From positions 127,001 to 191,000 of the forward strand of contig NZ_CBXV010000008.1 of the NCBI RefSeq assembly GCF_000820845.2: DNA of 64,000 nucleotides. Direction: 5' to 3'. This DNA comes from Pyrinomonas methylaliphatogenes (GTDB lineage: Bacteria > Acidobacteriota > Blastocatellia > Pyrinomonadales > Pyrinomonadaceae). How positions within the stretch are numbered: position 1 is the stretch's first letter; every line of letters begins with the position of its first letter. This document shows, piece by piece, positions 5,211 through 37,205 of this stretch. The position numbers and the translations under genes were made by a program. The notes below the pieces were generated by a model. It saw only the letters and a program-made list of their open reading frames with translations. It searched no databases and had not been told where the DNA came from.

Positions 5211-8200
5211 TCAGAACGTCCGCCCGATGCTGAAGCGAAAAGCTCGTTTCGGATAAGGCAAAGGCACGCCGTTCAATTCGCGCTGCGCGTTTGGATTGAA
5301 CGCATAGATCAGGCGGAACGGGACGTTGATCACGGGAACCTGCACGCGCAACTCGAGCCCGATGCTGGACCGAAAGTCTCCGAACTTGGAGAAGGCGCTC
5401 TGCGACATCCGCACGATCGTGTTGGTCTGCGCTTCGCCGCGGAAGAAGACCGCGCGCAACCCGACGGGCAATCCGGTCGTTTGGTCTATCTGCCCGGCGT
5501 TGACGGCATCTTGATACTCCTGCTTGGTGAGCAAATGCGTGCCATCCGAAACCAAAGCGAACGATCCGTCTGAAGTCGTGAAGGTCGCTAGATCGGGGTT
5601 ACGCGCCGCGACGAGCGACGTCAAGGAGATGCCGAGCGAGCCGGGCAAGAAAGGCGTATCGGCCAAGAAATTGCTCGTGATGAATTGATCTCCCCCTTTG
5701 CGCAGGTTGAAAGCCGACCCGATATCGGCAAACGCCGCCAAACTCAGAGGGCCGAAGAGCGGGATGCGATATTCGAAATTGCCCAGAACCTGCGTATCGG
5801 CTCCGATATACTGATACGTGCGCGCGACCAGTGGCGAGTTGCTGTTCGGACCGGTGAAAGTGCCCAGATTCGCAAACTGTTGAAGCTCTGGGATCGGCTG
5901 CGGATCGCCCGTCGCATTGGCCGCGACGACGACGTTGCGCGTCGTCACGTAGGTGTCGAGCGGCGCGAGCGGGCTGATCGAGCGCACGTCGTAGCCGCGG
6001 ATCGTAAACTCGTCTCCGAGGAAGAAGCGATCATAAATCGGCACGCCGTTGACGAAGGCGAGCGAATTGGCGTTGCGCACCGTCGGCGTTACTGAAAAGC
6101 TTCCGACGTGCCCGGCCAGAAGGCGGAAAGCGAAGACCTCGGGCTTTTGCCCACGCCCTTTCCGACGCACGGGGATGAACTGGGAATAGGAGATGATCGG
6201 CTGATAGGTGCGCACATCGCCGCCGAATCCGGCTACAGCGAACGAGAAGGAGATCTGCTTGCCTCGCGTCGGATCGATCCCGTTGCTGTTCGAGAAATCG
6301 CGCGTGTCATAGACGAAAGTCGGCGTCAAGCGGCTCGTGATGATATCCGGTTGCGAATAGAGCACGGGGATCGCGCGCCGCGGGTCCTGCTGATTGATCG
6401 GCGGCTCCTTGATGCTCGTTCGCGAGATCGAATACGACAACCCGATCCGCGAGAAGGTCGTAAACCGCCGCTTGCGGTAGAACTCCGATAGCGGCGCGCT
6501 GACGAAGAGGCTTCCGCCGGTCGTATCCTGCGTGAAGAGATTTTCCTCGCCGACGTTAACCAGCTGCCCGAAAGCGGTTCCTAATAAACCGCCGATCGCC
6601 TCGGGATTCTGCGAGAAGATCGTCCCCTCGCCGAAGAATTTGAGCGACTGGGTGTACAAGGAGAAGCCGGCTGTGATCGGACGGTTGCGCACATAAGGTT
6701 CGGTGAAAGAGAAGAGGAAAGACCGCTGACGATCGCCGGCAGCGAGCTGAAATGAGAGCGATTCGCCGCGCCCGAAAAGGTTGTTGGTCGAATATTCCAA
6801 GCCGAAGAAGGAGCCGCCAATGCCCGACACTCCGCCGTTGAAGGAGATCTGCTGGCGCCCGCGTTCGGTCACCTTGACGTTGACGTCAACGTAGCCTTCC
6901 TCATCGTTGGTCCGAAAATCGGCGTCCTTGTCCTTATCGATCGGGTCGAAGAACCCGAGCTGATTGAGGCGCACGATCGAATATTCGAAGAGCGATTGGT
7001 TGTAAACGTCCCCTTCATTCAACAAGAACTCGCGTCGCAAGACGTAATCGCGCGTGAAGGTGTTCCCCAGAAACTCCAACCGGCGCAACGTGAATTGCCG
7101 GCCTTCGGTGATCTTGATCGTGAAATCGGCGATCCCTTCGTTCGGATTCTGCGGGTTATCGCGGAAGGAAGGCTCAAGCTCAGCCTCGTACTGCAGGAAC
7201 CCTTGCGTGCCATAGACGCGCTTGAGATCCTCGAAGATCGCTTTCCCGATGCGCTCGCCGTTGGCGATATCCCCCTTCTTCAAACCGATGACGTTCTGGA
7301 TGTACTGCTCGGAGAGGATCGAGTTACCCTCGACCTTGATATCGCCTATCCGATAGAGCTTCCCTTCAACTACCGGGATCGTCACGCGCAAGGCATCGTC
7401 AGTCGATGAAAGCAACGGCAACGGGATGAAGAAGCCAGTCGTCCGGCGCCCGATGCCCTCGACGCGCGGCTCACCAGTGCGCGCCTGCAGATAACCTTTC
7501 GAGCGCATGTAAAGCTCGATCCGCCGCCGATCCTCATCCAACTTGCGCGTGTCGAGCACGTCTTGCCCGCGGAAACGGGAGATCAAACCGGCTTCCTTGA
7601 CATACTTCATCTGCGAGCGCAGTTCGCCGTCCTTGAAGACATGGTTGCCGACGAAATCTATCTCGACGACACGCACGCGCTCACCTTGATTGACGACGAA
7701 GGTGACGGCGACCGATGTCGCGGAGACCTCCTCGGTGCGCACGTCTACGGTCGCGTTCGGATAGCCGCGCGAGGCCAACAACTCTTTGATGATGCGCGTC
7801 GCGTTACGCACTTTGACCGGATCGAAGATGGACTCTTTCGAAACCCCGACGCGCGATTCGCGAAACGCTTTAAGGATATCGGACTCGGCGACCGCTTTGA
7901 GTCCCTCGAACTGCAGATCGCGGATGATCGGCAGCTCCTTGACCTCGAAGATGACCTCGACCCCTCCGCGCGGCCCATCTTGGATGAGGACGCGCGATTT
8001 GGTCTTGTCGAACCAGCCGAGCGCCATGATGGCTTGAAAATCGCGCTGCACCTGTTGCTCGTTATAAGGATCGCCCGGACGAGTCTGCACATAATAAAGG
8101 ATGGAGTCCTCGCTGATGCGGCGATTGCCTTGGATATCGACGGCCTCGACCAGACGTTGCTGAGTCGATTGCGCGCCCTGACTGGCCCATGCGGTCGCCC

Positions 8201-8267
8201 AGAACAATCCGCCGAAGATCGTCACCAAAGCGAAACGGATGAAGAGTGGCTCGCGCAAAGTTCGCAT
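5211..8267 (-). CDS. bamA: Outer membrane protein assembly factor BamA
   Basis: The protein is an Omp85-family outer-membrane protein of 1018 residues. The start chosen is the ATG at 8267, preceded by GGAAGAA at good spacing. An upstream TTG at 8285 would disrupt the signal peptide. After the signal peptide come five POTRA-type segments (~30-470; for example VEAVDIQGNRRISEDSI and FTLRRLEFLGNTFTRDYVL) and a 16-strand-type barrel ending in a C-terminal aromatic (FSIGRTF). The conserved loop-6 motif appears as TIRGYD rather than VRGF. The protein is about 200 residues longer than E. coli BamA, mainly from extracellular loop insertions in ~760-950. It is followed by ompH. Confidence 0.95.
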   Translation of the reverse strand: MRTLREPLFIRFALVTIFGGLFWATAWASQGAQSTQQRLVEAVDIQGNRRISEDSILYYVQTRPGDPYNEQQVQRDFQAIMALGWFDKTKSRVLIQDGPRGGVEVIFEVKELPIIRDLQFEGLKAVAESDILKAFRESRVGVSKESIFDPVKVRNATRIIKELLASRGYPNATVDVRTEEVSATSVAVTFVVNQGERVRVVEIDFVGNHVFKDGELRSQMKYVKEAGLISRFRGQDVLDTRKLDEDRRRIELYMRSKGYLQARTGEPRVEGIGRRTTGFFIPLPLLSSTDDALRVTIPVVEGKLYRIGDIKVEGNSILSEQYIQNVIGLKKGDIANGERIGKAIFEDLKRVYGTQGFLQYEAELEPSFRDNPQNPNEGIADFTIKITEGRQFTLRRLEFLGNTFTRDYVLRREFLLNEGDVYNQSLFEYSIVRLNQLGFFDPIDKDKDADFRTNDEEGYVDVNVKVTERGRQQISFNGGVSGIGGSFFGLEYSTNNLFGRGESLSFQLAAGDRQRSFLFSFTEPYVRNRPITAGFSLYTQSLKFFGEGTIFSQNPEAIGGLLGTAFGQLVNVGEENLFTQDTTGGSLFVSAPLSEFYRKRRFTTFSRIGLSYSISRTSIKEPPINQQDPRRAIPVLYSQPDIITSRLTPTFVYDTRDFSNSNGIDPTRGKQISFSFAVAGFGGDVRTYQPIISYSQFIPVRRKGRGQKPEVFAFRLLAGHVGSFSVTPTVRNANSLAFVNGVPIYDRFFLGDEFTIRGYDVRSISPLAPLDTYVTTRNVVVAANATGDPQPIPELQQFANLGTFTGPNSNSPLVARTYQYIGADTQVLGNFEYRIPLFGPLSLAAFADIGSAFNLRKGGDQFITSNFLADTPFLPGSLGISLTSLVAARNPDLATFTTSDGSFALVSDGTHLLTKQEYQDAVNAGQIDQTTGLPVGLRAVFFRGEAQTNTIVRMSQSAFSKFGDFRSSIGLELRVQVPVINVPFRLIYAFNPNAQRELNGVPLPYPKRAFRFSIGRTF

Positions 8268-8637
8268 AGATGATTCTTCCCTCAAACCGTGCGTCCCTTC
8301 GGGGAGAGCGGAAGCTTTCGATCGCTGCTCGCAAAGCGCCCGGCGTCGGGGTCATCCGCAACCGGTCGCGCCGCTGATCCCTATCGATCCGCTTGAAAGT
8401 CCGCTATTTGATTCGCGCCACCGGTTGCGCCGTTGCCAGATCTTCCGGCAAAGCGGCGCATTATACTAGCAACCGCGCCGTGAAGGCAAAAAGCTACGCT
8501 ATCGCGAAAAGGTTCCGTCCGAGCCTTCGGAGCGGGCAGATCTGCCGGACGATGAACGACAGTTAAATCAGGACGCGGGGGGAGTCGGGCTTAAGCTCCC
8601 GCGAGCGAAAGATCGAGCATGATCGCATCAAAAGCCT
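8268..8637. other. Intergenic region between clpC and bamA
   Basis: These 370 bases hold no supported gene. They contain the candidate bamA promoter at 8460-8489, and therefore a leader of roughly 185 nt before bamA. Nearer clpC there is a palindrome GGCAGATCTGCC and a weak GGGAG/CTCCC stem without a U-tract, so no convincing clpC terminator is visible. Confidence 0.5.
8460..8489 (-). promoter_or_regulatory. Candidate sigma-70 promoter for bamA
   Basis: On the minus strand TTGCCT (8489-8484), an 18-bp spacer and a perfect TATAAT (8465-8460) form a vegetative promoter upstream of bamA. The predicted transcript begins near 8453, leaving a long leader. It would drive the bamA-ompH-fabZ-lpxA-lpxI run independently of clpC. 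Confidence 0.6.
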
Positions 8638-10989
8638 TCAATGGATCAACAGCGCGTCTCCCGGCTCTTCCACCGTCGCCGGACGATAGCTCAACCCATC
8701 GCCCGCGACGAACACTTCGACGACGCTTGCACCGTTCAAAGATCCCTGGATGATAGCTTCGCTGAGCGGATCTTCGACGTACTTCTGCAACGCGCGGCGC
8801 AGCGGCCTAGCGCCATAAGAACGATCCGTACAGGTCTTATTGACGATCCAGCGCTTGGCCTCATCGGTCAACCGGACCTCAAGCCCGCGCCGTCGCAAAG
8901 TCCGGTTCAACTGCTCAACCTGTAATCCGACGATCTCAAACAGCTCCTCATCGTGCAGCGGGTCGAAGATGATGATCTCGTCCAGGCGGTTGATGAATTC
9001 CGGATTGAAGGTCTGCCTGACCGCCGACATCACCATCTCCTCTATCTTCTCGCGCGTCGCCTCAGCCGAGGCTTGGAAACCGAGCGCGCCCCGCTTCTGG
9101 ATGAAGCGCGCGCCGATGTTCGACGTCATGATGATGATCGTATTCTTGAAATCGACCGTGTTGCCGAGCGAATCGGTCAAGATGCCATCCTCGAAGACCT
9201 GAAGCAGGATGTTGAAGATGTCCGGGTGGGCCTTCTCGATCTCGTCGAAAAGCACAACCGCATAGGGCGATCTTCTGATCCGCTCGGTCAACTGACCGCC
9301 CTCTTCATGGCCGACATATCCGGGCGGGCTGCCGATCAGTTTCGAGACGGCATGTTTCTCCATGAACTCCGACATATCGAAACGGATCATGGCCCGCTCG
9401 GAACCGAAGAGAAATTCGGCGAGCGAACGCGCGACCTCGGTCTTCCCGACGCCCGTCGGTCCTAGGAAGAGGAACGAGCCGACCGGTCGGTTCGGGTTCT
9501 TCAATCCGGCGCGCGAACGACGGATGGCGCGCGCCAACGCCGAAATGGCCGAACGCTGCGCGACGACGCGACGATGCAACTCCTCTTCGATGCGCAGTAG
9601 CTTCTGCGACTCCTCTTCCTTCAGCGACGTGATCGGGATGCCGGTCCAGCGGGCGATCACCTCTTCGACATCGTCTTTCGTCACCTCGACCGAAAGCAAC
9701 ATCTCATCTTCCTCGGCAAACGGGACGCCGAGATCGGCGAGGAAGATCGGTCCATCGTATGACAGGCGCTCGGCGCGTTCGCGACGCGCACGTAGCTTGA
9801 CGCGCGCTCCGGCCTCATCGATCACATCGATCGCCTTGTCGGGCAGGAATCTATCCGGAATATAACGGTTCGACTGATAAACGGCAGCTTCGAGCGCTTC
9901 GCGCGTGTACCGTACTTGATGGAAGGATTCGTATCGTTCGCGCAACCCTTCGAGTATCCGGATGGCCTCTTCTTCCGTCGGCGGCGGGACTTTGACGGCT
10001 TGGAAACGGCGCTCTAGCGAGCGATCGCGCTCGATCGACTTGCGAAATTCGGCTGGGGTCGTCGCGCCGATGCATTGGATTTCGCCGCGCGATAGCGCTG
10101 GTTTCAAGATGTTGGCAGCGTCGAGCGAGCCTTCGGCGCTGCCCGCGCCGACCAGCGTATGGAGCTCGTCGATGAAGACGATGTACTGCGGGTTTTCGAT
10201 CAGCTCTCGCATGATCTGCTTGAGCCGTTCTTCGAACTGGCCGCGATACTTCGTCCCGGCGACGATCAAGGAGAGATCGAGCGATAGGATGCGTTTGTTT
10301 TCGAGAAACGGCGGGACTTCGCCGCGCACGATCCGCTGCGCTAGCCCCTCGACGATCGCCGTCTTCCCAACGCCCGGTTCACCGATCAGGACCGGGTTGT
10401 TCTTCGTTCGGCGGCAAAGGATCTGGATGACGCGCTCGATTTCGGCTTCGCGCCCGACGAGCGGATCAAGCCGATCGTTCATCGCGTCTTCGGTCAGGTC
10501 GCGCGAAAACTCCGCTAGATGCGGTGTGTCCTTCTTCTGCGAAGTGCGCGGATCGACGCCGAGCGATCTGGCGATCTCCTCGCGCACGGCGCTGACGCGC
10601 AATCCGCGCTCGTGCAAGATCTCCGCCGCGAGCGAACGCTCTTCGCGCAACAATCCAAGCAACAGATGCTCCGTCCCGATGTGTTTGTGACCGAGCCTTT
10701 CCGACTCCTCGTGCGCGTAGACGAGCACCCGTTTGGTGTCGGGCGCCAGCGGCAGTTCGACGCTGGTGGAGATCTTCTCGCGTATCGTCGTCCGCGCTTC
10801 GATGTCGCGGCGGATCGCCTCAACCGACATCTGTGAGCGAGCGAGGAAACGCGATGTCAAGCTTTTGTCTTCGCGCAACAAACCCAAGAGCAGGTGTTCC
10901 GGTTCGATTGCGGGCGCACCGAACTGTGCGGCTTCGTAACGTGCAAAGAAGATGACCCGTCGCGCTTTTTCCGTGTAGCGTTCAAACAT
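8638..10989 (-). CDS. clpC: ATP-dependent Clp protease ATP-binding subunit, ClpC type with shortened middle domain
   Basis: This is a AAA+ unfoldase of 783 residues. Two N-terminal Clp_N repeats (1-145; [26 protein letters not shown]) are followed by the first AAA module (Walker A GEPGVGKT, Walker [10 protein letters not shown]) and the second ([19 protein letters not shown]). An ALGF tripeptide-type loop near residue 635 is the ClpP-docking signature, so it should feed ClpP. Between D1 ([12 protein letters not shown], ~393) and RWTGIP (~446) there are only ~50 residues. ClpC normally carries a longer coiled-coil/UVR middle domain that binds adaptors such as MecA or McsB, and that coiled coil is missing here. 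clpP is not in the window. A candidate promoter lies at 11067-11095. Confidence 0.93.
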
Positions 10990-33669: not shown

Positions 33670-34215
33670 TCATCCCTCCCTCTTGCGCACGAACGCTTCG
33701 CCGCGCGGCTCCAATCCGGCTTTCTTCGCGAGCGTGGCGAGGACCGAAGCGAGCAACTGCTTGTCGTCTATCTTGAAGCTCGTCACGCCCGAGACGTTCG
33801 TATCCGGGTCGCTGTATTGAAGCGTTAGATAGCGATACTTCTTCCGGATGAACCAAGCTGGGACGTTTGCCCCATATGGCGCAGGGATGCTGCCGATGAC
33901 GGTCGCCGCCGTCGGACGACGCGAACGATTATCAGCAAAGGCCGCCGTGATCGCTCGATAGGGGATGCTGAACACCTCCTTATCTCGCTTATCGCGAAAG
34001 ACCAGACGATTGTTCGCATCGTCGAACTGGAGCGTCCCATCCATCTTGCGGTTGTAGCCGAGAACGCCGCCCTCGTATTTGGCTTTGAACGTCTGCGGCG
34101 CAGGCGGCAACTCGTTCGGCGCAGATTTATCTTCAGCCACACGCGGGCGCACCTGCGCTTGGACGGCGCCGCACAGGAGCAACGCGAAGAAGATCGTTGC
34201 GATCGGTCTCCTCAT
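33670..34215 (-). CDS. Secreted protein of unknown function
   Basis: The 181-residue protein has a signal peptide (PIATIFFALLLCGAVQA). The mature part is beta-rich, with a segment GTLQFDDANNRLVFRDKRDKE resembling a PH-like or lipid-binding strand pattern, then SIPYRAITAAF and a YLTLQYSD strand. This layout recalls bacterial PH-like domains, in which a setting such as I-P-Y-x-x-I is common, but I cannot assign a family. It is convergent with the quinone reductase gene and downstream of the HAS-barrel gene. Confidence 0.65.
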   Translation of the reverse strand: MRRPIATIFFALLLCGAVQAQVRPRVAEDKSAPNELPPAPQTFKAKYEGGVLGYNRKMDGTLQFDDANNRLVFRDKRDKEVFSIPYRAITAAFADNRSRRPTAATVIGSIPAPYGANVPAWFIRKKYRYLTLQYSDPDTNVSGVTSFKIDDKQLLASVLATLAKKAGLEPRGEAFVRKREG

Positions 34216-34295: not shown

Positions 34296-34883
34296 TCAGA
34301 ACCGCGCGTTTTGGAAGACCCGCTGCCAAGCGAGCGTCTTCTTGAGCACGCACAGCCGCCGCGCCTCCTCTCCCGAAGAGAAGGATTCGAGCTGTTCGAT
34401 GATGGCGCTGATCAACGGGATGGCCATCTCGCGCGCATGCGTCATGATCTGCGCGAAGTAGTGGAGCCGCAGACGGCCATCTCGCCCGAGATGAAAGCGC
34501 CGAACCTCATCCGCAGTCATCCGATAGACTTCCGCCGCCACAGGGATGACCCGCTGCGGGATCGCCTGATGCGCTTCACTGCCGGCCCACCATCCGAGAA
34601 CTAAGATTCCGATCAGCACGCCCAACTCGTCCAGATAATCCGGGCTCAGGATCTCAAGCTCGGCCCGCGGAGAAAGACGCGGCCCATAATCGCCATATCT
34701 CGGATTGATGAGCAGCGAATCGTAGACCACCCCGACGATCTCTGAATCGTCCGTCGGAATTCGAACGAATTGAGCGAACCCGTAATCGGACGGCGCCGGC
34801 GGATCGGCCACTTCCAAGCGATCAAGGATGCGCCCGACGTAATCGACATGCGAATTCGATCTCACGATGCGCGCGATCTTCAT
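34296..34883 (-). CDS. Orphan HAS-barrel domain protein (HerA N-terminal-like), no ATPase domain
   Basis: The protein has 195 residues. The N-terminal ~75 residues (MKIARIVRSNSHVDYVGRIL, DYGFAQFVRIPTDDSEIVG) match the HAS-barrel fold that starts HerA-type helicases, as I recall it from cyanobacterial and acidobacterial homologues. They are followed by INPRYGDYGPRLSP and a helical C-terminus. There is no Walker A or B motif, so the HerA ATPase is absent. The downstream half (VLGWWAGSEA, TADEVRRFHLG) is helical and may mediate assembly. The nuclease gene nurA lies directly upstream (95-nt gap, same strand), so the two probably act together in DNA end processing. The partner ATPase, if any, is elsewhere. 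Confidence 0.65.
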   Translation of the reverse strand: MKIARIVRSNSHVDYVGRILDRLEVADPPAPSDYGFAQFVRIPTDDSEIVGVVYDSLLINPRYGDYGPRLSPRAELEILSPDYLDELGVLIGILVLGWWAGSEAHQAIPQRVIPVAAEVYRMTADEVRRFHLGRDGRLRLHYFAQIMTHAREMAIPLISAIIEQLESFSSGEEARRLCVLKKTLAWQRVFQNARF

Positions 34884-34978
34884 CTCAACCGGTCTCCCCC
34901 AAGATCACAAGTCAAAACGCCGCCGAATCTGAGGATCGGCCCCTCAGCGAATCTGTTCGGCGGTCCGCCCTCCAGAGC

Positions 34979-36184
34979 TCAATGGCGGCGAATTTTGCTC
35001 GCCGCCTTGCGCGAGAACGAAAGCTGTAATCCGGCGCGCGAGGCGAATTCCTGGACCAGACGCCAAGCTTGCTCAAGATCGCGCCCGGTAATCACCGCCG
35101 CCGCATCAGCCGTCTCGATCGCATACGGATAACCGTTTCCCACGACGCATTCGGCGCGCACGACATCGACGACCTCCTCGAGCAGGCCTTCACGATAGAC
35201 CCACGACGGGATATCCAGCCTCGCCGGCGGCGCATCCCTGGTCGTCTGCAGATAGACGAATCCGATGCGCGGATCGCCGCTTTCGTCGAGGAAAGCATCT
35301 CGCGAATCCTCTATGCCTTCGCGCATGCAATAAAAGAAGATCGTCCGATCCCCCCAACGCGAAAGGGCCGCGGAGCCGTCTTGAGCGCGCAACAGCTGAC
35401 CGTCGAAGAGCGTCGACTGTCGATTATCTTCAGCCAAGAAGTCGAGCAGCTTGACCAGATCGCGCGCTTGACTCTGATCGATATAACCGACGATCGGAAC
35501 CCGCGCTTCGTCCGACTTCCGCACCAGATGTAAGACCTTTTCGATATACTGATCCTGTCGGCGCGTGCGGGGCTGCGCGTAAGAGATGAACAACGATCCA
35601 TCGAAGAAGGCTACGGGGGCGCGCTCGCCGCGCGTTTGCCATCCCCTCTTGTCCTCGATGAACTTTTCGATCATCTCGATCTCGCCGGAAAAACGGCGGA
35701 AGTTGACGATCGCTTCCGGCGTCTCGGCCTCGTTCTCGCAAAAAGCCGTCGGCGTGATGAGCTCGAGCTTAACCTCTTTGCGATAATCCTCCTCCGCGCA
35801 GTGCGGATTCTCGAAAGAAGCGATCTGAACGACGGCGACCGGCGGGATCAACTCGCGCAATAGCGCTTGCCCGCCATCGGCGGCGTATGTCGTTCGACCG
35901 CTCAAGACATCAGCCGCCCAACGGCGCGCCCCTTCATGCGACCGCCACAGCCGCTGATCCTGAGAGAATCTGCAGGCCAAAGAGCGCGATCTATCGAGTT
36001 CGTCCGAAGGGAACGCGCCGCGAAACTCAGCGCACCGCATCCGCACCTGTTGCGCGCTCATTCCCGCGAGCTCGTTAAGCAGTCCGACGCCGCGGTCCAT
36101 CTCTTTTTGCCAGGCGTCATTCAATCGCTTGAAATCTTCGATACACTTGTCGAGCGCTGAAACGAAATGCTTCAAATGCAACAT
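34979..36184 (-). CDS. nurA: NurA-domain nuclease
   Basis: The protein has 401 residues. After an N-terminal helical region (~1-105), the NurA core shows its usual acidic motifs: AADGGQAL (first catalytic Asp), VAFFDGSLFIS (second Asp), GYIDQSQARDL and the C-terminal YPYAIETADAAAVIT block. NurA is a Mn-dependent 5'-3' exonuclease and endonuclease that acts with the HerA translocase in DNA end resection. Here the only HerA-like neighbour is a HAS-barrel protein without ATPase. The helical N-terminal extension is longer than in archaeal NurA and may be a docking module. Confidence 0.78.
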   Translation of the reverse strand: MLHLKHFVSALDKCIEDFKRLNDAWQKEMDRGVGLLNELAGMSAQQVRMRCAEFRGAFPSDELDRSRSLACRFSQDQRLWRSHEGARRWAADVLSGRTTYAADGGQALLRELIPPVAVVQIASFENPHCAEEDYRKEVKLELITPTAFCENEAETPEAIVNFRRFSGEIEMIEKFIEDKRGWQTRGERAPVAFFDGSLFISYAQPRTRRQDQYIEKVLHLVRKSDEARVPIVGYIDQSQARDLVKLLDFLAEDNRQSTLFDGQLLRAQDGSAALSRWGDRTIFFYCMREGIEDSRDAFLDESGDPRIGFVYLQTTRDAPPARLDIPSWVYREGLLEEVVDVVRAECVVGNGYPYAIETADAAAVITGRDLEQAWRLVQEFASRAGLQLSFSRKAASKIRRH

Positions 36185-36265: not shown

Positions 36266-36763
36266 TCACCTTTTCTGCGCGCGACTCAACTGCTCGGCGG
36301 AAGGGCTATAGTAAGCCCGGCGCAAACGCCCGTTCATGAAGCTATAGACGATGCCATCCTTCTGATTGCGATAGATCGCGACCGGCCCGCGCTCTTCGCG
36401 CGCGAAATTCGGATCAGCCTCCACGCCGAGCGATTGCGGCGTATCGGGCGCATTGTCGTATTCGACGACTACTTGCAATACCGTCCCTTCCAGATTCGGA
36501 TCGAGATGTTTGGTTTCGGCGAACTTCGGCGTGACGAAGGTCACCGTCACTCTGCCACCGACGATCTTGAACCGCAACTCGTTCGTCGCTTCGCCCGGCC
36601 CCGGAAGCGGTTTGCCGAGGATCCGCTCCACATCATCACGCCGCGATTTCAACGGCTCGATCCCCTGCCACGGCGCAGAGATGGCAAACGGCGCGGCGAA
36701 CATGATGACTAAAGCGAGGCGCGCAAGTTCGACTTTCAGCATGAGCTTACGATGTGACCCCAT
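36266..36763 (-). CDS. Secreted protein of unknown function (acidobacterial type)
   Basis: The 165-residue protein uses the ATG at 36763, with AGGTG nine bases upstream. An in-frame ATG at 36742 would also give the signal peptide (LARLALVIMFAAPFAIS). The mature protein begins WQGIEPLKSRRDDVERILG, a W-x-G-I-x-P-L-x-S-x-R-x-D-V-E block that I remember from many acidobacterial secreted hypotheticals and that resembles the SmpA/OmlA-type beta-alpha start. No catalytic motif is visible. It stands divergent from the large nuclease gene. Confidence 0.65.
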   Translation of the reverse strand: MGSHRKLMLKVELARLALVIMFAAPFAISAPWQGIEPLKSRRDDVERILGKPLPGPGEATNELRFKIVGGRVTVTFVTPKFAETKHLDPNLEGTVLQVVVEYDNAPDTPQSLGVEADPNFAREERGPVAIYRNQKDGIVYSFMNGRLRRAYYSPSAEQLSRAQKR

Positions 36764-37205
36764 GATTGTTGCACCTGTGCGATCGCTTTTCATGCGCGTC
36801 ATGGCGCTAATGCTACCCCGTGCGCGCGCAGGATTCAAGAGGGATCGGTTCAATCCCGCCGCTTCATCACGCAGCTTGCTGCAAATTCTTGACTGTTGAA
36901 GGCGTCCGATGCGCGCAATCCTCGCCCTTTGAGGCAGATCGCATCACCGCCGCAAATTTTTTATAGAGCCGAAAAAGCCCGCGCAACGCCCGCCCTCAAA
37001 TCTCGCCTTCGCGATCCCGATTTTATCGAGATTTAACTCACACACAACCGAAGGTTAACAAATCAAGCTCTATCCTCTTCACCTCCGAAGATGAGCGCTC
37101 TACGCGCGGGCTTGACGCGCTCATGCTAATGCGTGTAGAAAAGGCAACGCTCTTTTCACCCGTTTTATCAAGACGTCCTCTTCGGAGAGAAAGGTTTCTT
37201 CTCGC
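36764..37205. other. Divergent intergenic region upstream of the secreted nuclease
   Basis: These 442 bases show no gene. Base composition is more AT-rich than the surroundings near 36950-37080 (AATTTTTTAT, GATTTTATCGAGATTTAAC). For rightward transcription, TTGACG (37112-37117) with TGTAGA or TAGAAA 16-18 bp downstream is a possible weak promoter. GGAGAGAAAGG near 37183-37193 is the likely ribosome site for the GTG start at 37206. Confidence 0.4.

Follow-up and report, generated by a model that had tools for sequence, protein, structure and literature searches.

A standalone HAS-barrel protein associated with HerA and NurA in Blastocatellia and on some haloarchaeal plasmids

For two decades HerA–NurA has been investigated as a machine of two components, and both its role in bacteria and its role in archaeal end resection are disputed (PMC12977600, PMC9960219). 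In the solved complexes NurA is bound by the HAS domains of HerA (PMC12977600, PMC9960219), which in Deinococcus offer an acidic face to a basic face of NurA (PMC9960219). The 64,000-nucleotide stretch of the Pyrinomonas methylaliphatogenes genome analysed here (the window) raises the question of what a HAS barrel does when it is encoded beside NurA as a small protein of its own, lacking an ATPase core (Table 1). Such a pair had been proposed in a first-pass annotation of the window, and we found it to be correct: both open reading frames are present, the smaller protein has a modelled HAS-barrel fold, and its neighbour belongs to the NurA family PF09376. We consider it probable (roughly 70%) that Blastocatellia and some haloarchaeal plasmids encode an archaeal-type HerA–NurA system in which the 195-aa protein, a HAS barrel of its own, partners HerA, likely as an adaptor that connects NurA to the ring; that HerA would need it, and how it would act, we infer.

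Table 1 Features around the nurA–HAS gene pair (window positions)
Feature	Position	Strand	Basis or remark
Downstream neighbour, 181-aa predicted exported protein	33670..34215	(-)	Cluster 1, in 31/42 loci analysed
Standalone HAS-barrel protein, 195 aa	34296..34883	(-)	ORF; fold from AlphaFold model
Gap between nurA and HAS gene, 95 bp	34884..34978	(-)	Most relatives have a zinc-ribbon + membrane-helix gene there
NurA nuclease, 401 aa, archaeal-type, N-terminal helical region	34979..36184	(-)	PF09376; AlphaFold model
Upstream neighbour, predicted exported protein, GIEPLKSRR motif	36266..36853	(-)	Cluster 4, in 12 loci

The HAS-barrel protein and the NurA of the window

The 195-aa protein had no match at E ≤ 10 among the Pfam, NCBIfam and PADLOC profiles. 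The only Pfam family reached by its orthologues was the HAS-barrel family PF09378, weakly and in five of 41 sequences (best E 0.03); the window protein itself did not reach the cut-off of this model, and a PDB sequence search with a profile of the family gave chance matches only. The AlphaFold model (pLDDT 80.7, pTM 0.78; alignment of 29 sequences; residues 63–86 uncertain) comprises a beta-barrel, at about residues 1–121, followed by C-terminal helices (residues 124–191). In both structural searches HerA HAS barrels came first (Foldseek 8e-06), with VIA Z scores of 12.2 to 8wod, 10.4 to D. radiodurans HerA and 10.3 to T. kodakarensis HerA. The matches to most HerA entries span 102–115 residues, leaving the helices at ~143–191 little covered, and F1-ATPase barrels rank next (Z ~8.9). 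These matches settle the fold of the modelled protein as a HAS barrel.

The sequence carries a family motif, xSNSHxDY (residues 8–15), and no Walker motif. The net charge of the barrel part was negative in 19 of the 20 family members examined, which fits contact with a protein (NurA) better than DNA binding. A recent derivation from HerA was rejected, as comparison of the HAS profile with the N-terminal domain of HerA revealed no profile similarity (hhalign probability 0.4%). The matches that a scan of genome contigs gave for the window protein all lay in Acidobacteriota; phages and viral contigs contained no relatives.

The identity of the second protein is certain: it is a NurA by both family profile (PF09376, E 3e-26, scoring 92.9 bits where the cut-off is 21) and fold. 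Its AlphaFold model (pLDDT 83.8, a confidence reached only by the best of five models) is closest to archaeal NurA structures (Z 20.1 to 2ygk, 19.9 to 9x1m and 18.1 to 3taz), with lower scores to the bacterial proteins of Thermotoga (12.9) and Deinococcus (11.8); by sequence, the PDB contained no match. All 20 orthologues compared carry Asp103 (in AADGGQ), which by its position is the putative counterpart of Asp49 of T. kodakarensis NurA, the first-strand catalytic aspartate. The long N-terminal helical extension pointed out in the first-pass annotation is indeed present, but it is not unusual, since the model aligns with archaeal NurA structures from their first residues and the NurA of a haloarchaeal operon, described below, has the same helices (Halobaculum, 30% identity over residues 4–400, 3e-45).

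In the window, nurA lies 95 bp upstream of the HAS gene on the same strand, among ordinary genes. An inverted repeat seen in the gap folds no better than shuffled sequences, yielding no significant RNA fold, and a scan of the gap for promoters and terminators remained at chance level. At most related loci a zinc-ribbon protein of 150–200 aa with hydrophobic helices is encoded between NurA and the HAS protein (cluster 2, 27 loci; e.g., L026:5356-5895); it is missing in the window. Conservation of the pair in Acidobacteriota exceeds chance: the HAS gene is kept in 83 of the 162 genomes analysed from the class of the window genome, and of the 62 genomes with both genes, 50 have nurA upstream of it in the same orientation, the two lying on different contigs in the remaining 12.

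HerA in the genome and across Acidobacteriota

The first-pass annotation described the pair as lacking a HerA and proposed either a split system with its ATPase elsewhere or a different motor. The absence holds for the neighbourhood and fails for the genome (3.79 Mb, 16 contigs, 99.5% complete), which encodes a full-length HerA (DUF87 ATPase, E 1.2e-40) at C7:162501-164177 and two further, divergent HerA-like ATPases on contigs C1 and C2. The C7 gene, on another contig than the nurA–HAS pair (contig C8), stands alone among cell-wall and sugar-nucleotide genes with no nurA nearby, such that herA–nurA operon linkage is absent in this genome. Ahead of its Walker A motif the protein has an N-terminal domain of 170 residues, which gives a match to T. 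kodakarensis HerA (E 1.1e-11) mainly over the second half. A HerA stripped of its HAS barrel is thus not supported; since the C7 HerA is full-length and has its own N-terminal domain, the system is probably not a HerA cut in two, and what survives of the split-system proposal is the location of the ATPase elsewhere in the genome. Residues 5–532 of 559 align end to end with positions 4–542 of 561 of the archaeal repair HerA model NF040819 (E 1.3e-64, scoring 218.7 bits where the equivalog cut-off is 970), a far better match than those to antiphage HerA models (1e-26).

The HerA-like ATPases of C1 and C2, members of another subfamily, each follow a divergent NurA. The first-pass annotation had held that a HerA beside another nurA would speak against its reading; to the letter such pairs exist, but they belong to the divergent subfamily and leave the window pair unexplained. 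On C1, at ~60725-64854 (L068:5726-9855), a DruA gene (PADLOC DruA1, E 3e-123), the divergent NurA and the divergent HerA-like ATPase follow one another on one strand, in what looks like a defence-type arrangement. On C2, a candidate IscB open reading frame, recognized by eye, lies ~2.6 kb upstream of the divergent NurA–HerA pair (L069:2803-4233 and 6824-9638).

Among 297 Acidobacteriota genomes drawn evenly across the phylum, the HAS protein and the C7-type HerA (E below 1e-200) were found in the same 14 genomes, and neither occurred alone in any. In the 162 class genomes, 77 had both, six the HAS protein only, five HerA only and 74 neither (phi 0.86). All 11 discordant genomes are fragmented assemblies (200–1,100 contigs), and missing sequence is the simplest reason for the discordance. 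Because the class genomes are related to each other, we mapped the HAS trait onto an Mfd tree built for 30 good genomes, the branches of which are only partly supported. The trait changes state at least seven times, and HerA changes with it in every independent pair (five on well-supported branches, seven on all), although with five pairs this contrast test is unable to give p<0.05. The gene trees of HAS and HerA have their main well-supported groups in common. This almost perfect co-occurrence with a C7-type HerA tells against a different motor. The two genes were nevertheless never found near each other in Acidobacteriota, where they share a contig only once, ~155 kb apart.

Strong NurA matches (E below 1e-12) were confined to genomes with the HAS protein or the C7-type HerA. 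Conversely, NurA went undetected in 21 of the 83 HAS-carrying genomes, so the HAS protein is not strictly a NurA adaptor. Some of these genomes are fragmented, but near-complete ones occur in one genus (g3), which indicates that the bond of the HAS protein with HerA is tighter than that with NurA. HAS and HerA persist without a detectable NurA in several genomes, including most well-assembled g3 genomes. Relative to HerA, the HAS protein also diverges more quickly in the absence of NurA, with a mean log-identity ratio of 1.82 between NurA-positive and 3.76 between NurA-negative genomes. This suggests, on the basis of about two independent losses, that NurA constrains HAS evolution.

The g3 HAS gene is flanked by genes for a DEDD exonuclease (PF10108, 3.9e-52) and a DNA methyltransferase (PF01555, 5.5e-41). 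At loci L060, L061 and L064-L066 the methyltransferase comes directly after the HAS gene (5.5e-41 in L066), and in most of them the exonuclease is just upstream. We considered the exonuclease as a substitute for NurA and dropped this idea: it is also encoded in g3 genomes devoid of HAS and HerA, and it sits next to both NurA and HAS in the four genomes G357 and G362-G364, so it represents no clean replacement.

An operon on haloarchaeal plasmids

The NurA and the 195-aa protein of the window and the HerA of C7 served as tblastn queries against 72,556 plasmids. Each of the three retrieved the same four haloarchaeal plasmids, the HerA query alone adding one weaker match, to a plasmid of M. jannaschii (Methanocaldococcus). 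The gene order on the four plasmids is metallophosphoesterase – SMC ATPase – NurA – HAS homologue – HerA, with the HAS and HerA genes overlapping by 1–4 bp; in Halorussus the array spans the start of the record and nurA is unannotated. All four thus have the herA–nurA linkage. The HAS homologues are 27–31% identical to the window protein over ~95% of its length, the xSNSHxDY motif being intact in two and degenerate in two, and the HerA proteins are 39–43% identical to that of C7. The first two genes of the operon look like Mre11–Rad50. Either the window pair is what remains of an operon that haloarchaea have kept whole, or haloarchaea assembled genes that were formerly dispersed. At the 3' end of one HerA gene (L125:2710-2871; NZ_CP099995.1:155645-155806), an overlapping 162-base match to a DES-1 beta-lactamase (PLSDB, 100% identity) is probably spurious.

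Co-occurrence, gene trees and gene order together assign the 195-aa protein to the C7-type HerA. The resulting system resembles the archaeal HerA–NurA that goes with Mre11–Rad50 (T. kodakarensis 9x1l-9x1p; Saccharolobus solfataricus 4d2i, 2ygk) in the fold of its NurA (Z ~20), in the end-to-end alignment of its HerA with the repair model and, in haloarchaea, in the linkage to metallophosphoesterase and SMC ATPase genes. It differs from it by the additional HAS-barrel gene between NurA and HerA and by the dispersal of the genes in Acidobacteriota; the archaeal HerA6:NurA2 structure has no standalone HAS subunit (PMC12977600). The HerA–NurA of Deinococcus-Thermus (7f6d, 7wrw) is the same functional pair, in which a HAS domain likewise binds NurA (PMC9960219); however, it consists of two components only, and the window NurA is nearer to the archaeal proteins (Z 18–20) than to that of Deinococcus (Z 11.8).

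Proposed role of the HAS-barrel protein

Very probably, then, a third, standalone HAS-barrel component of the HerA–NurA system is common to Acidobacteriota and haloarchaea. Our literature search found no account of one, although it did not reach the 2004 FtsK–HerA survey (Iyer et al.), which might mention it. The 195-aa protein connects a HerA and a NurA of Acidobacteriota, each an orphan, that annotation would leave unrelated. As a conserved third subunit with the fold of the domain that joins HerA and NurA, it offers a testable handle on assembly and regulation, and the lineages that kept HerA and adaptor and lost NurA represent a natural experiment.

For a free HAS barrel whose gene lies between those of NurA and HerA, the best explanation is a subunit that sits at the HerA–NurA interface; it has no ATPase core, so the power would come from HerA. 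Its physical contacts, stoichiometry and effect on activity we infer as follows. The C7 HerA, equipped with its own N-terminal domain, would form the hexameric DNA pump and NurA would be the nuclease of the system. The HAS protein might stack on, or insert at, the side of the HerA ring that bears the HAS barrels, the NurA docking site in known complexes, and it could act there as an adaptor or clamp, or as an extra tier of barrels, recruiting NurA or controlling it as HerA feeds it DNA. The most likely role of the system would be DNA-end processing in repair, as suggested by the HerA subfamily and by the metallophosphoesterase and SMC neighbours in haloarchaea. More tentatively, the HerA rings of this lineage might use an obligate separate HAS-barrel ring or adaptor for exchanging effectors, NurA in most genomes and another where NurA was lost; it would then be a third standard component of bacterial and archaeal systems, one that has escaped notice since no family model recognizes its sequence.

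The adaptor reading can be weighed against others. The HAS protein might primarily be a partner of HerA that recruits varied effectors, NurA being one of them, with another nuclease or enzyme encoded nearby docked where NurA is absent. The persistence of HAS and HerA without NurA in most well-assembled g3 genomes agrees with this, as do the exonuclease and methyltransferase genes beside HAS there; we find it rather doubtful, given that the exonuclease also occurs in g3 genomes devoid of both HAS and HerA and accompanies NurA and HAS in other genomes. It seems unlikely, too, that the protein has a regulatory function as a competitor of the HAS barrels of HerA, occupying NurA or the ring face and keeping the nuclease off until it is needed. 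It does share the fold of the NurA-binding part of HerA, lacks an ATPase core, is encoded beside NurA and is acidic, like the NurA-binding face of D. radiodurans HerA (PMC9960219), but a pure inhibitor of NurA should not outlast its target, and the HAS protein persists with HerA where NurA is undetected.

A role in anti-phage defence, in which HerA, nuclease and adaptor would degrade foreign DNA, had also been suggested for the pair, and we judge it improbable. HerA does pair with nucleases in defence, archaeal HerA–NurA has been proposed to act against viruses (PMC12977600), and the haloarchaeal copies are plasmid-borne. The HAS barrels of antiphage HerA (Sir2–HerA, DUF4297–HerA) and of TdpAB are among the best fold matches of the 195-aa protein; there, however, the barrel lies within the ATPase and the effector is other than a NurA of the window type. 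PADLOC found no match for the window NurA or the HAS protein, the C7 HerA is nearest to repair models and poorly matched by antiphage ones, and the window neighbours are ordinary genes. The approximately seven changes among 30 genomes and the tree groups in common with HerA suggest, in addition, mostly vertical inheritance. Finally, the idea that the 195-aa gene is a chance neighbour unrelated to NurA or HerA, for which the 12 genomes with HAS and NurA on different contigs might be invoked, is hardly credible, being contradicted by the co-occurrence with HerA, the linkage to NurA and the haloarchaeal operon.
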